A DNA stretch of 64,000 nt from Candidatus Jettenia sp. GTDB lineage: Bacteria; Planctomycetota; Brocadiia; Brocadiales; Brocadiaceae. Below the pieces are notes generated by a model, which worked only from the letters and a program-made list of their open reading frames with translations, had not been told where the DNA came from and searched no databases. This document shows, piece by piece, positions 15,615 through 63,841 of this stretch (its first letter is position 1; each line of letters begins with the position of its first letter). The stretch spans positions 2,261,659 to 2,325,658 of the forward strand of contig CP091278.1 in NCBI GenBank assembly GCA_021650895.1, in the 5' to 3' direction. A program made the translations under genes and the position numbers.

Positions 15615-17042
15615 ATGCTAGCCCTATCCAAGGATATCGTAAATTCAAAACAAAAGGATGTTTTGGGTAAGATTGAATGCCTTGATCAAGAATTATATCA
15701 TCACTTCAAGGATAAATTCCATTCTGATCTTTCTTTATCCCGCTCAATCGTCAGTTTTCAGGCTAACAAGGCAAGAGAAGTTTACCGGTGGTATAAATAC
15801 AAGGAAGCATTCTCCGCTTCCTTAGTCGAATATCTGTTTGAGAAATACAAAATCGTCAATGGCACAATTCTAGACCCATTTGCCGGCAGTGGAACTTCTT
15901 TATTTGCCGCAAGTGCACAGGGAGTAAACGCAGATGGAATCGAATTGCTGCCGATTGGTCAACAAATAATCCACACGAAAAAAATATTAGCGTTAGAGTT
16001 CATAAAAGATGATTTTAATACCCTTAAACGGTGGTCGCTCGAACAACCATGGGAAAAATCTAAGTTACGAATGCTGCTGAACGAATTACGCATTACAAAA
16101 GGTGCATATCCAGAACAAACGAAAGAAGCAATCGAAAAATACTTAGGCACATGCGAGCAAGAGAAAGAACGCATTCGGACAGTTTTGCAATTTGCTTTGT
16201 TATGCATTTTGGAGTCGGTAAGCTATACACGCAAAGACGGTCAATATCTACGCTGGGATTATCGGTCTGGAAGACGACAGGGTAAAAAGCCATTCAATAA
16301 AGGAACTATTCTCAGTTTTGAGAAGGCTATTTATGATAAACTAGAGGAGATCATTTTCGACTTACAAATCAGAGGAAAACAGAAAACACTTTTTACCTCA
16401 AAACACCCACACGGTACGATTCATCTCTATAGTGGTTCGTGTCTTGATATATTGCCAACTATTCCCACAGGTACGTATGATGCCATTATTACTTCACCTC
16501 CATATTGTAATCGGTACGATTACACACGTACATACGCCTTAGAACTTGCCTTACACGGGATAAGTGAAAAAGAATTAGTAGATCTTCGGCAACACATGCT
16601 TAGCTGCACAGTTGAAAATCGCGCCAAAGACTTGCTAAAGATAAATCCGCATTGGTCAGAGGCTATTACTACCGCTGATCATCAAGAGCTACTACAGGCC
16701 ATCTTGAAATATTTAGATGACCAAAAAGCACAAGGTATGCTCAATAATAATGGTATTCCTAGAATGGTTCGAGGCTATTTTTATGAGATGGCTTGTGTAA
16801 TTGCTGAATGTTCAAGAGTAATGAAACCTAAGTCTCTTTTATTTATGGTGAACGATAATGTTCGATATGCGGGAGCCAGTATTTCAGTGGATATGATACT
16901 TTCCAACATTGCAGAGAAGTTGGGGTTTCAGATAGAAAACATCTTAGTATTACCAAATGGTAAAGGGAATAGCAGTCAACAGATGGGCAAACACGGACGT
17001 GAATTGCTCCGAAAGTGTGTTTATGTTTGGAGAAAAATCTGA
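15615..17042 (+). CDS. Site-specific DNA methyltransferase, probably N4-cytosine
   Basis: This 475-residue protein has the AdoMet-binding motif DPFAGSGTS near residue 90 and the catalytic [11 protein letters not shown] near 294. The SPPY form is usual for N4-cytosine methylases but does not exclude adenine. About 180 residues separate the two motifs and may hold target recognition. The last codon overlaps the start of the downstream endonuclease (TGATG), so the two form a coupled restriction-modification operon. AvaI and BsoBI systems use N4-cytosine methylases, which agrees with the family of the partner. Confidence 0.8.
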
Positions 17043-18010
17043 TGCGGAGGTCGAATCTGCCGCATTTAAAGTCGAGCAAAGATCTTGAGACTACATATGA
17101 GGCTGTCCGTGCAGGTTTTGTAGCACAGGCATTAGAGAAGAACAGACAGGCTACTCCGTACATTGAAGAAGCAAGGGCATTAAAAGTTGCCGCTTCAACT
17201 GCTAAAACACCATCTGATTTGCTCAATATTCCAGATATACAATCAGCTTTATTAACCGCTGCCGGTGTATCAGACAAGGCAAATAATCATTTACTGCCAA
17301 AGGATAAGGAAGAAGCAATAAAAGGGCTGATTGATAATTTTCTTGAGCCAGCAGGGAAAAAGTTTGTTGAAGAACTCGTTTTCAGATTTTTACTGATACG
17401 TGGAGATACCTTGGGCGGTTCAATGCGGAACATCGGCGGAGTTTTAGCCCAGAGGAAGTTGACTCGTTCTCTTATTTCTGCACTTAAGATTGCTGGCAGA
17501 TCATATGAATTACTTCATTCTGAAACAAATACATGGATACCTATGTCAGAAAATGATGCAGAAATTGAGATATTTGTAAAAGGTGTCGGTTGGAAAAAAG
17601 ATAACGAAAGTCGTACAGCACTCTTTAATTTATTCGTACCCATCGTTGGCAACAATATAGATTTGTGTTTGTTTAATTGTGAATCAAAAGATTTTTCCAA
17701 TAAGAAAATTGCCAAAGATACACTAAATTCTCCTCATGCGTATATTGCACTTGGAGAACTAAAAGGAGGAATAGACCCTGCCGGCGCTGATGAACACTGG
17801 AAGACTGCATGGACAGCACTCAGTAGGATCCAAGATTCATTTGCAAAATCCAGGCACAAACCTTATCTTTTCTTTATAGGGGCAGCTATAGAATCAAAAA
17901 TGGCAACAGAAATCTGGCATCTGTTGAAAAAAGGCATACTTACCAATGCCGCAAACCTAACCGATGACAACCAAATAGCATCTTTATCACGCTGGCTGTG
18001 TAATCTATAA
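17042..18010 (+). CDS. AvaI/BsoBI-like type II restriction endonuclease
   Basis: This protein of about 322 residues resembles AvaI/Bso[11 protein letters not shown] supplies an Asp and [20 protein letters not shown] supplies the E-x-K of a PD-(D/E)xK active site. AvaI and BsoBI cleave CYCGRG. The start chosen is the ATG at 17042, which overlaps the methylase stop by one base; an upstream in-frame ATG at 17015 lies inside the methylase and is less likely. The gene is intact. Restriction of CYCGRG is a prediction. Confidence 0.8.
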
Positions 18011-18165: not shown

Positions 18166-18207
18166 CAGAATATTTTATATTTCCCTGTTTATAAAAAGGA
18201 GTATCTT

Positions 18208-18867
18208 ATGTTAAAAAATATCTTACTGGGTTTTACCTTGCTAGCCACGCCTTTTATTTCTCTCGCTTTTGCTGATACACAAGAAATTTCGGCATCGGTC
18301 CTATGGGAAAAGGGACTTGATGAAGCAATTGCTAAAGCAAAGACTACCGGAAAACCAATTCTTCTCGATATTTTTATGATTGGCTGAGCAAGCTGTGAAT
18401 CTTTGGATACCGTGACGTATCCTCATCCCGCAGTTATTGACTATATCAATAAACATTTTATTCCTGTACGATATAATATACAAACGAATCCAGATATTAA
18501 AAATAAATATCGGCTCCTCTGGGCACCAACGGTAATAGTTCTGGACTTGAACGGTACAGACTATCATCGGTTTAATGGCTTCTTACCACCCGAAGAATTT
18601 ATCCCTCAGCTAGAGTTCGGAATCGCTAAAATGGCTTTAGAAAAGCAAGATTTAAAGGCAGCAAAAACACAATTCATGAGCGTAGTGGGAAAATACCCGA
18701 AAAGCGATATTGCTCCAGAAGCTCAATATTGGGTTGGTGTTGTTGATTTTCAACTCACCAATGATGTAAGTACAGAAATCAATGCGTGGAAAAAAATACA
18801 AGAGTATTATCCGGGCAGCATATGGGCAAGGAAGGTGTCAGGGGCGATCTCATGTGAAAAGGAGTAA
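18208..18867 (+). CDS. Exported thioredoxin-like selenoprotein (in-frame UGA, UxxC motif)
   Basis: Read through a TGA at 18385-18387, this is a 219-residue protein. It has a signal peptide (cleavage after SLAFA, residue 22), a thioredoxin-like domain and a C-terminal helical TPR-like segment. The TGA is residue 60 in IGUASC, exactly where relatives have the first Cys of WCxxC. The frame continues unbroken with family sequence (TYPHPAVIDYINKHF, APTVIVLD) to the stop at 18867. A SECIS-like hairpin lies 17 bases downstream of the UGA. The start has AAAAGGAG eight bases upstream. Other genes here end in TGA, so TGA is not read as Trp. The alternative is a nonsense mutation or sequencing error. 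Confidence 0.8.
18405..18422 (+). promoter_or_regulatory. Candidate bacterial SECIS element
   Basis: GGATAC and GTATCC form a perfect 6-bp stem with loop CGTGAC. The loop begins 23 nt after the UGA (18385-18387) and has G at its second position. Bacterial SECIS elements typically have an apical loop 16-37 nt from the UGA with a G in the first two loop bases, so spacing, stem and loop all fit. Found by eye, not scored. Confidence 0.65.
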
Positions 18868-18984: not shown

Positions 18985-19392
18985 ATGGAAAAAATACTAT
19001 GGGGAGAAAGTTTTAGTGTCGGCGTTCGGGACCTTGATGAACAACATAAACAAATCATCATCATGGTAAACACCTTAATCGACATGAATGACACAAAAGT
19101 CGATTCAGAAATTATCTCGGATACATTAACAAAAATGACCCGATACGCCACTGATCATTTTAACAAAGAAGAACAATATATGCTCGAATATAGTTATCCG
19201 GAGTATTCATTACAAAAAAAACAACACCAGGAATTTAAGAGAAAAACCGTTGATTTTTGTATGGAAACGATGATCCACAATACGACGGTCCCGATAGCAA
19301 TATTCACGTATTTAAAATCGTGGTGGACGAACCATATACTGAAAGATGATATGAAGTACAAAAAGTTTTTCAACGAGAGAGGACTAAAGTAA
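18985..19392 (+). CDS. Bacteriohaemerythrin
   Basis: This single-domain, 135-residue O2-binding protein has the diiron ligands His21 (DEQH), His58 and Glu62 (HFNKEE), His81 (HQEF), His117 and Asp121 (HILKD). It has no signal peptide or fused sensor domain. Such proteins bind O2 reversibly in the cytoplasm and may buffer or deliver it, or repair iron-sulfur proteins. It follows the selenothioredoxin gene by about 120 bp in the same direction and fits the oxygen-defence theme of the window. Confidence 0.92.
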   Translation: MEKILWGESFSVGVRDLDEQHKQIIIMVNTLIDMNDTKVDSEIISDTLTKMTRYATDHFNKEEQYMLEYSYPEYSLQKKQHQEFKRKTVDFCMETMIHNTTVPIAIFTYLKSWWTNHILKDDMKYKKFFNERGLK

Positions 19393-19422: not shown

Positions 19423-19992
19423 TTATTTCTTCTCTATTTGGACAGTAACATTCGTCCCATTGGAAATAACATCAAACACGGGTGATAGTTTGCTTAATGC
19501 CTTTAGTCTTTCCACATTTTCAGCATCTGTCTTTACTTTAAAGTTAACCCGTATGTTTTCGTAACCTTTCCTAACTTCATTTGATAACCCCAAAAAGCCC
19601 CGAAGGTCAATATCGCCCTCCAGCTCCGATTCTATCTCATCCAATTTAATACCCCGAATAGCAGCATGGTAGACCATAGTCGAAGTCAGACAGGCTGCCA
19701 GTGCATTAAGAAGGTGTTCTACAGGATTAGCGCCAAGATCTTCTCCTGCAAGAACGGGGGGTTCGTCTGCCTCTAAGGTAAACGGTTTATTGTGAGGGAT
19801 TTTTTTATTAGCACCGCAAAAATCTTTGACAGTCGAGCGGTTATGACCACCATTGATCCATTTGTTATTTATATGAAATTTGAATTTAGCAAGCTCAGGA
19901 TTGCCTTTTATAGCATTGACCGTATCTTCAATCATGCTAACGTTTACTCCATTTATTAATTTTTGCTCTGATATGGTTTTTTGTTCTGTCAT
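19423..19992 (-). CDS. OsmC family protein
   Basis: This 189-residue protein has the OsmC/Ohr fold. A conserved Cys lies in LAACLTSTMVYHA near residue 101, after GANPVEHLLNAL. The second Cys of true peroxidases in this family is not obvious, so it may belong to the broader OsmC-like (YhfA) group rather than being an organic hydroperoxide reductase. The N-terminal half is longer than usual, with a segment like NKWINGGHNRSTV. It is transcribed toward haemerythrin, with its own leader. Confidence 0.85.
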   Translation of the reverse strand: MTEQKTISEQKLINGVNVSMIEDTVNAIKGNPELAKFKFHINNKWINGGHNRSTVKDFCGANKKIPHNKPFTLEADEPPVLAGEDLGANPVEHLLNALAACLTSTMVYHAAIRGIKLDEIESELEGDIDLRGFLGLSNEVRKGYENIRVNFKVKTDAENVERLKALSKLSPVFDVISNGTNVTVQIEKK

Positions 19993-61264: not shown

Positions 61265-63097
61265 ATGAATACTGGTTTTTCTATCAAAGGACTCTTCGCT
61301 CTTATTTTCATATCACTCTTATACCCCCTGGTAACATTTGGAGAAACCTCTCCCTTTAAACTACAGGGAGACCTTGTAAAGGATCACGTTTCTGCAGATA
61401 GCCCCATACCTGTTACGATTACTTTCACAATAGCGCCCAACCATTATACCTATAAAGATCAAATGAAAGTAGAAAGCGGGGACCCCTCCCAATTTACCGT
61501 AACCTCTGCAACACTTCCTGCGGGAAAAGTTAAGTACGATCAATTCCTAGAGAAAGAAGTGGAAATCTACGAGGGTCAAGTAAAGATAAACTCATTCCTC
61601 CAACTTTCAAAGGACACTCCACCTGGCCCATACCATATAAAGCTTAAAGTACATTATCAGGGGTGTTCCGATAAAATGTGCTTTGCTCCCAAGATAGAGG
61701 AGCTTACCATACCAGTACAGGTGGAGTCCCCTGGTTCAGGCGCACCGGTATTGTCAGAGGGAAAAAAGCCAGCACCTCCTGCCTCTCAGCCAAAGGAAAA
61801 AGCTGAGCCTGATGGTTTTCAAAAGACCCTTGAAAGCAGAGGACTTTTTGTATCCCTGACTCTTATTTTCTTAGCTGGCATAGGCTTAAGCTTTACCCCA
61901 TGCGTATACCCTATGATACCAATCACTGTTGCCATAATTGGAGGGCAAGCTGCTGCAGATCAAGCATCAGGAAGAAGACCCCTGAAGGCGCTTCTTCTTT
62001 CACTCATATATGTTCTGGGAATAGCTGTCGTTTATGCTTCTCTGGGTGTTATTGCTGCTTCTACCGGAGCATTATTTGGCACAGCTCTGCAAAGTCCCTG
62101 GGTCATAGGATTCGTGGTGGTGGTGTTTGTAGCGCTTGCCCTGAGTATGTTCGGACTCTATACCTTGCGGGTCCCATCCTTTATCTCTGATCGGCTGGGA
62201 ACAAAGACAGGAAAGGGTTTTATTGGGGTCTTCATTATGGGGTTAATTTCGGGAATTGTTGCCTCGCCATGTATCGGCCCCGTACTCGCCAGTCTATTGG
62301 TCTATATTGCCAGCACAGGAAATAAATTCCTGGGGTTCTGGATGCTCTTTATTTTTGCCTGGGGATTGGGAGTGCCTCTCATTGTATTGGGAACCTTTTC
62401 AGGCGCTATAAAGACATTACCAAAATCAGGTGAATGGATGGTAACCGTAGAAAGGATATTTGGATTACTTTTACTTGGAGTTGCCTTGTATTATGTAAGA
62501 TTCATTATATCAGAAAACATCTTTATCATTATTCTGGGATTGTTTTTAATTATTACCGGTGTGTTCTCAGGGGGTTTTGACCGATTGACCAACGAAAGCA
62601 CTACCTTCCAGCGAGCAAGGAAGGCCTTTGGTCTCATAGCCTTTATCTTCGGAACATATTTCCTTGTAGGACATCTCATAATCAGAGGGTTTATTTTACC
62701 ACCTTTCTCAACATCAACATCTACCCAGGTAGAAACAACAAAGGAGAAGATCGATTGGATATTCGATGAAGAGAAGGGACTACAACAAGCCAAAGCAAGT
62801 GATAAGATGGCAATGATTGATTTTTGGGCATCGTGGTGTGCGGCCTGTATAGAGCTCGATAAACTTACCTATACAAATCCGGAGGTTATCGAAGAATTAA
62901 AAACATTGGTAAATATCAAGATTGATAGCACTAATACGAACGATCCAAGAGTTAAACAGCTTTGGAATAAATATGGAATTGTAGGCCTGCCTACGGTAGT
63001 ATTTGTCAATAAGGACGGAACGGTACTCAAAGATAAAACTATTACAGGCTTTGTCAATGCTCAGGAATTTCTGCAAATCTTAAAAGATCTGGAATAA
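61265..63097 (+). CDS. dsbD: Thiol:disulfide interchange protein DsbD
   Basis: This 610-residue protein carries electrons from cytoplasmic thioredoxin to the periplasm. After a signal peptide comes the DsbD alpha domain with CSDKMCFAP. A multi-pass membrane domain has CVYPMIPI near residue 217 and SPCIGPVL near 337. The C-terminal thioredoxin-like domain has WASWCAACIELDK near 521. AAGGAGA precedes the ATG. It would keep cytochrome-maturation thiols and perhaps the periplasmic selenothioredoxin reduced. A TlpA-like gene follows. Confidence 0.93.
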   Translation: MNTGFSIKGLFALIFISLLYPLVTFGETSPFKLQGDLVKDHVSADSPIPVTITFTIAPNHYTYKDQMKVESGDPSQFTVTSATLPAGKVKYDQFLEKEVEIYEGQVKINSFLQLSKDTPPGPYHIKLKVHYQGCSDKMCFAPKIEELTIPVQVESPGSGAPVLSEGKKPAPPASQPKEKAEPDGFQKTLESRGLFVSLTLIFLAGIGLSFTPCVYPMIPITVAIIGGQAAADQASGRRPLKALLLSLIYVLGIAVVYASLGVIAASTGALFGTALQSPWVIGFVVVVFVALALSMFGLYTLRVPSFISDRLGTKTGKGFIGVFIMGLISGIVASPCIGPVLASLLVYIASTGNKFLGFWMLFIFAWGLGVPLIVLGTFSGAIKTLPKSGEWMVTVERIFGLLLLGVALYYVRFIISENIFIIILGLFLIITGVFSGGFDRLTNESTTFQRARKAFGLIAFIFGTYFLVGHLIIRGFILPPFSTSTSTQVETTKEKIDWIFDEEKGLQQAKASDKMAMIDFWASWCAACIELDKLTYTNPEVIEELKTLVNIKIDSTNTNDPRVKQLWNKYGIVGLPTVVFVNKDGTVLKDKTITGFVNAQEFLQILKDLE

Positions 63098-63343: not shown

Positions 63344-63841
63344 ATGAATAAAAAAATAGCTAGATATCTTTGTTTTACTTTTTTATTTGCAACGATCTTA
63401 ATGGCTGTTTCAACAACTTCTTATGCGGAAGATACTATTAAGGAGATAAAACTTGCGGAATTACATACTTTACTCGAGAACAATAAGGGCAAGGTGATAG
63501 TTCTTAATTTGTGGGCAACATGGTGTTCACCCTGCAGGAAAGAGATACCGGGATTTATCAGTCTTTATAAAAAATATAAGGATAAGGGCCTGGAAATTAT
63601 TGGTATTGCCTTTGATGAAAATGGGTCAAAGGTTGTTCCTCCATTCATAAAAAAATTGAATATAAATTATCCCATTTACCTTAGTGGTGGCGATATCGGC
63701 CCCGCATATAATCTCGAAGCTTATCCAACTACTATTATTTACAATAAAAATGGCAGCATGGTTAATCAGCATGCTGGTTACGTATCGGAGCAAGAGCTTG
63801 AGGATGAACTGAGTACATTACTAAAAGATCAGCAAAAATAA
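63344..63841 (+). CDS. TlpA-like periplasmic thiol-disulfide reductase
   Basis: This 165-residue protein has a signal peptide (to about residue 28, ending SYA) and a redoxin domain with WATWCSPCRKE near residues 57-67, GIAFDENG and a cis-Pro in YPTTIIYNKNG. Such proteins pass electrons from DsbD to apocytochromes in cytochrome c maturation or to other disulfides. ACAAGGAGC lies before the ATG. It is the last gene in the window. Confidence 0.9.
   Translation: MNKKIARYLCFTFLFATILMAVSTTSYAEDTIKEIKLAELHTLLENNKGKVIVLNLWATWCSPCRKEIPGFISLYKKYKDKGLEIIGIAFDENGSKVVPPFIKKLNINYPIYLSGGDIGPAYNLEAYPTTIIYNKNGSMVNQHAGYVSEQELEDELSTLLKDQQK

Follow-up and report, generated by a model that had tools for sequence, protein, structure and literature searches.

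A predicted exported thioredoxin-TPR selenoprotein of Candidatus Jettenia and its selenocysteine-dominated family in Planctomycetota

A 2026 catalogue lists 119 families of prokaryotic selenoproteins, none of which is of a thioredoxin-TPR type (PMC13188914). The closest entry is a 'thiol:disulfide interchange protein' (WP_011366075.1; PF13098, UxxC; PMC13188914), a kind of selenoprotein reported from deltaproteobacteria (PMC1794560). Like the protein analyzed here, it carries selenocysteine (Sec) in the UxxC motif of a Thioredoxin_2-type domain (PF13098), but it is set apart by description, being defined by the thioredoxin domain with a TPR tail unmentioned. The same domain order, an N-terminal thioredoxin fold followed by C-terminal TPR, is found in CnoX/YbbN (PDB 3qou; PMC6282202), which however is cytosolic and carries CxxC or SxxC. 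Other thioredoxin-fold selenoproteins described in NCBIfam (TsoB, VPGUxxT and Trx7/PDZ) match our protein in part but have different architectures and motifs; the scores lie far under the curated cut-offs (TsoB, 49 of 805 bits), and no NCBIfam model was reached by the protein at its cut-off. A search of open-licence papers yielded neither a thioredoxin-TPR selenoprotein nor a link between this protein and Jettenia or anammox. With no catalogue or NCBIfam entry to hold it, the protein is of a known kind, a thioredoxin-fold UxxC selenoprotein, with an unlisted architecture.

The gene lies in the window analyzed here, a 64,000-nucleotide stretch of the complete, single-contig, 3.82-Mb genome of a Candidatus Jettenia species. 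It runs from ATG to TAA at 18208-18867, is preceded by a ribosome-binding site (AAAGGAG, 18195-18201) 6 nt 5' of the ATG, and encodes 219 amino acids when its in-frame TGA is read as Sec; the gene and all features within it are on the forward strand. Translation confirmed what the initial annotation had read from the sequence, namely a single internal TGA (18385-18387) at residue 60, in the context IGUASC, where the thioredoxin CxxC motif has its first cysteine. The resolving cysteine of the UxxC motif is Cys63 (18394-18396). The expected similarity on both sides of the TGA was also recovered, as the Pfam Thioredoxin_7 match covers residues 33-113 and runs through the codon, which the Thioredoxin_2 and DsbH-type models likewise span.

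The proposed architecture of a thioredoxin domain with a TPR-like tail was upheld by Pfam, by a structure model and by fold matches. In the model, built with 48 sequences (mean pLDDT 95.7), a thioredoxin fold is followed by five helices. The first half (residues 33-126, 18304-18585, with the cis-Pro at residue 107) is most similar among solved folds to DsbD-gamma (PDB 2fwe, 1vrs and 1uc7; Z 13-13.7, best 13.7; rmsd ~2-3), with which it shares the position of the active site. It differs from DsbD-gamma in having Sec for Cys, in being free-standing with a predicted export signal and a TPR tail, and in having no membrane part: the DsbD_TM and alpha domains of DsbD were absent from the 219 residues in a Pfam scan. 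PF13098 is matched by the window protein and by 47 of the 48 members overall. Invariant features are the UxxC, in which one member has Cys for Sec, together with the cis-Pro and a Gly. The all-helical second half (residues 128-217, 18589-18858) was assigned by profile and structure comparison. A TPR_6 repeat after the thioredoxin domain scores slightly below its cut-off, TPR_19 is matched in 1/48 members, and the best structural matches are the TPR proteins YfgM, YbgF/CpoB and BamD, which resemble this half in fold and weakly in sequence but, unlike the window protein, have no thioredoxin domain. Although CnoX/YbbN is the first Foldseek hit, the two-domain arrangements superpose poorly as rigid bodies (TM 0.40, rmsd 12 A), and the thioredoxin domain is DsbD-like rather than CnoX-like.

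A candidate bacterial SECIS element follows the TGA at 18405-18422 (GGAUAC-CGUGAC-GUAUCC). Its stem pairs 18405-18410 with 18417-18422 in six perfect pairs, its loop (18411-18416) has G in the second position, the distance from TGA to loop is 23 nt and the MFE is -8.9 kcal/mol. The geometry claimed in the initial annotation was thus borne out, and the hairpin lies within all four ranges of the published bSECIS model (spacing 16-37 nt, loop 3-9 nt, stem 4-16 bp, MFE <= -7.5; PMC13188914), to which our test added a G within the first two loop positions. Taken alone, the hairpin is weak evidence, because its energy z-score is only -0.38, which is not significant, and because 13% of the TGA trinucleotides across the window are followed by a loosely SECIS-like hairpin; single-sequence energy was dropped as proof of recoding. 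An Rfam scan of the window returned nothing at gathering score.

It is the comparative data that settle the question. Of 61 distinct homologues, 56 have a six-bp hairpin at the same fixed offset, no other offset giving more than one, and the stem covaries: 22 cells were altered on both sides, none of 500 shuffles did as well, and all slid controls were beaten. One stem pair joins position two of an Asp/Gly codon to the wobble position of a Tyr codon, and the two bases co-vary (p = 4e-10, a value that counts sequences and not independent events), and since the wobble change is synonymous, the Tyr side has no protein-level reason to follow. In the host genome the combination of TGA and hairpin was found at exactly three sites, which are the three paralogues of the family.

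The homologues themselves were extracted and aligned from a search of 392 Planctomycetota genomes. In about 60 distinct homologues the TGA aligns at residue 60, with Cys at 63 in all Sec forms, and the family is present in this one sample in about 50 genomes from 16 family-level groups. The initial annotation had asked whether relatives might lack a conserved Cys/Sec at this position; the alignment contradicts this, with residue 60 being Sec or Cys. The closest named relative, Candidatus Jettenia ecosi, has a protein 91% identical with the same TGA, and one scan of a genome collection with the window protein matched nothing besides this copy and a single distant Cys protein of Bacteroidales, while a plasmid search gave nothing beyond weak thioredoxin matches. 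Codons 3' of the TGA are under purifying selection: four comparisons gave dN/dS of 0.28 for the closest pair and 0.08-0.12 for the other three. Two family copies, L112 (G362:C177:7364-7642) and L036 (G138:C1), have TAA besides TGA and are either decayed duplicates or assembly errors. Outside the family, L155 (G131:C3) has three neighbouring thioredoxin_7-like segments, two with UxxC (DWUPSC and EGUGAC), a possible multi-Sec cluster.

The distribution of the Sec machinery is consistent with this pattern. As the initial annotation had proposed checking, selA, selB, selD and the tRNA-Sec gene (selC) were looked for and all were found in the host genome, with selA and selB adjoining and the tRNA-Sec bearing anticodon TCA. 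The host selD (L049, G000:C1:2198205-2199131) itself has an in-frame TGA (CGGUAGK) and encodes a Sec-containing SelD. Across the Planctomycetota sample, selB was detected in 42 of 49 Sec-form genomes and in 193 of 343 others (p = 7e-5). Of the seven Sec-form genomes with no selB match, six have tRNA-Sec and the seventh has a SelB C-terminal fragment; one family-positive genome of 99% completeness (G153), in which tRNA-Sec is present and a full selB was not seen, is a point against our favoured explanation. Planctomycetota yielded a single full-length Cys form (L046, genome G374); it is without the hairpin, and neither selB above cut-off nor tRNA-Sec was detected in its genome. In a second sample, 296 genomes from the phylum of a Bacteroidales record, full-length thioredoxin-TPR homologues free of in-frame stops occur in 11 genomes; the six that were read are all CxxC with the hairpin absent. 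We regard it as virtually certain that the UGA at 18385 is Sec, inserted by SelB and tRNA-Sec through the hairpin at 18405-18422. The recoding is as certain as sequence allows, its signals having been computed together with the family, architecture, paralogy and purifying selection.

The N-terminus carries a predicted export signal peptide (residues 1-22, 18208-18273), consisting of MLKN, a hydrophobic stretch and AFA ahead of D. Signal peptides were assigned by visual inspection aided by a simple hydrophobicity count. An N-terminal extension is common to clades A and B, and within the 20-row Brocadiales branch that includes the window gene (support 99) signal-like N-termini are present in all but one row, which has an unsure start. 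Inspection and clade-wide conservation thus favour the exported protein of the initial annotation, and we consider it very probable that the window protein is exported, either into the periplasm or into the lumen of the anammoxosome. Outside the Brocadiales branch most members are without the extension, have Sec at about residue 30 and look cytosolic, while L110 and L136 (Cys form) also look exported. The window gene is a member of the IGUASC/IAUASC clade, which nests inside the PTUxGC clade, and genes of the two types stand in tandem in G106 and G366, which points to duplication in the Brocadiales branch. The host genome has two further Sec paralogues, one of exported type with PTUAGC (L056, G000:C1:3562230-3562844) and one with PGUIGC and no signal (L059, G000:C1:1463845-1464384), beside FMN reductase, pirin and isochorismatase genes. 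The unusual protein of the initial annotation is no single oddity, being one of three paralogues in the genome and part of a phylum-wide family.

The gene neighbourhood is less informative. The haemerythrin-like gene noted initially does adjoin the selenoprotein gene (18985-19392, forward strand, 117 nt gap on the 3' side), but this neighbour is found in three Jettenia genomes only, with a separate haemerythrin 5' of the gene in two f2 genomes; because the downstream neighbour is conserved within the genus only, a functional link is weak, and a haemerythrin-selenoprotein operon as a conserved unit was rejected beyond the genus. Past the haemerythrin gene an OsmC-like protein is encoded on the opposite strand (19423-19992). 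Elsewhere in the family, an AhpC/TSA peroxiredoxin gene, a candidate redox partner, overlaps the start of the selenoprotein gene (L152, G046:C240), and a lactamase-rhodanese (rhodanese/MBL) protein lies 3' of the gene in L130. Sister-clade neighbours (lysine-decarboxylase-like, Fe-S subunit, DUF3786, FMN reductase, pirin and isochorismatase) were set aside, their synteny being conserved but their functions incoherent. Neighbours vary across the family and point to no substrate; their theme is loosely one of oxidative stress, which proves nothing. Directly 5' of the selenoprotein gene is a gene for a BsoBI-type restriction endonuclease (PF09194, E 1e-150; 17015-18007), preceded by a DNA methyltransferase-like gene (15615-17042), likely a restriction-modification system. 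As initially stated, the genome encodes DsbD, here at 61265-63097 in the window (forward strand; 610 aa, with a C-terminal WCAAC thioredoxin domain), which is the sole DsbD_TM match found in the host genome, and a TlpA/ResA-like protein with WCSPC is encoded at 63344-63841.

Most likely, the selenoprotein is an extracytoplasmic Sec reductase that would be reduced by DsbD and hold clients with its TPR tail, and the DsbD at 61265-63097 is its proposed electron donor; we infer export, redox direction, donor and client binding alike. As a whole, recoding, export and a DsbD-fed reductase with a client-holding tail form the best explanation, one that we think is probably correct. The detailed mechanism is more tentative, with somewhat less than an even chance: Sec60 would attack oxidised thiols or mixed disulfides of clients, Cys63 would resolve the selenylsulfide, DsbD would restore the reduced state, and the TPR tail would act like that of a 'chaperedoxin' in holding the client. 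The invariant UxxC and cis-Pro, the fold matches, the DsbD in the window and the redox-type neighbours elsewhere count for this mechanism, while the shortness of the tail, with its five helices, and the poor rigid overlay on CnoX count against it. DsbD cannot serve the whole family, since most members are without an export signal.

Of the other functions considered, a role in peroxide metabolism survives best, as an unlikely reading in which Sec60 reduces peroxides or hydroperoxides directly or serves as dedicated reductant for a peroxiredoxin, AhpC, OsmC or haemerythrin partner. The AhpC/TSA overlap in L152, the haemerythrins adjoining the gene in three Jettenia and two f2 genomes and the OsmC-like gene at 19423-19992 would fit such a role; the neighbours nevertheless change between clades, and UxxC with cis-Pro is of the disulfide reductase type, not the TxxU/CxxU of peroxiredoxins (PMC13188914). 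A quite improbable reading is that of an extracytoplasmic reductase for cytochrome c maturation, whose tail would bind apocytochromes and whose UxxC would keep CxxCH cysteines reduced. Multihaem cytochromes are numerous in anammox bacteria, and the predicted export signal, the duplication in the Brocadiales branch and the DsbD and TlpA/ResA-like WCSPC proteins in the window agree with it, but the family is mostly cytosolic and occurs also in planctomycetes outside Brocadiales, maturation genes were absent among the adjacent genes examined, and a complete genome of the same taxonomic family (G088) is without a Sec form. That the UGA is simply read through, or decoded as an amino acid other than Sec, is very improbable: we found no observation in favour of this, and the conserved, covarying SECIS, the Sec machinery of Sec-form genomes, the Cys of homologues and the absence of the hairpin from Cys forms all oppose it. 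Nothing supports a pseudogene or sequencing error, a negligible prospect given a TGA kept in about 60 homologues, its retention together with the hairpin in independent genomes and the low dN/dS beyond it in three of four comparisons.

A Sec-dominated thioredoxin-TPR family is added to the selenoproteins of planctomycetes, and annotation, with no curated model to draw on, will probably split its genes or mark them as pseudogenes. A single architecture relies on Cys in the sampled phylum of the Bacteroidales record and on Sec in planctomycetes, and G374 is a clean case of a planctomycete with no detected Sec machinery, a Cys form and no hairpin. More speculatively, and in our view doubtfully, the family may be a phylum-wide one of Sec 'chaperedoxins', of which the anammox branch would have been exported and duplicated and would serve to protect or repair periplasmic or anammoxosome proteins; if true, this would make selenium a determinant of protein redox care in anammox bacteria. 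These bacteria matter in the nitrogen cycle and in wastewater treatment, and they gain here a testable, selenium-dependent redox protein that is predicted to be exported.
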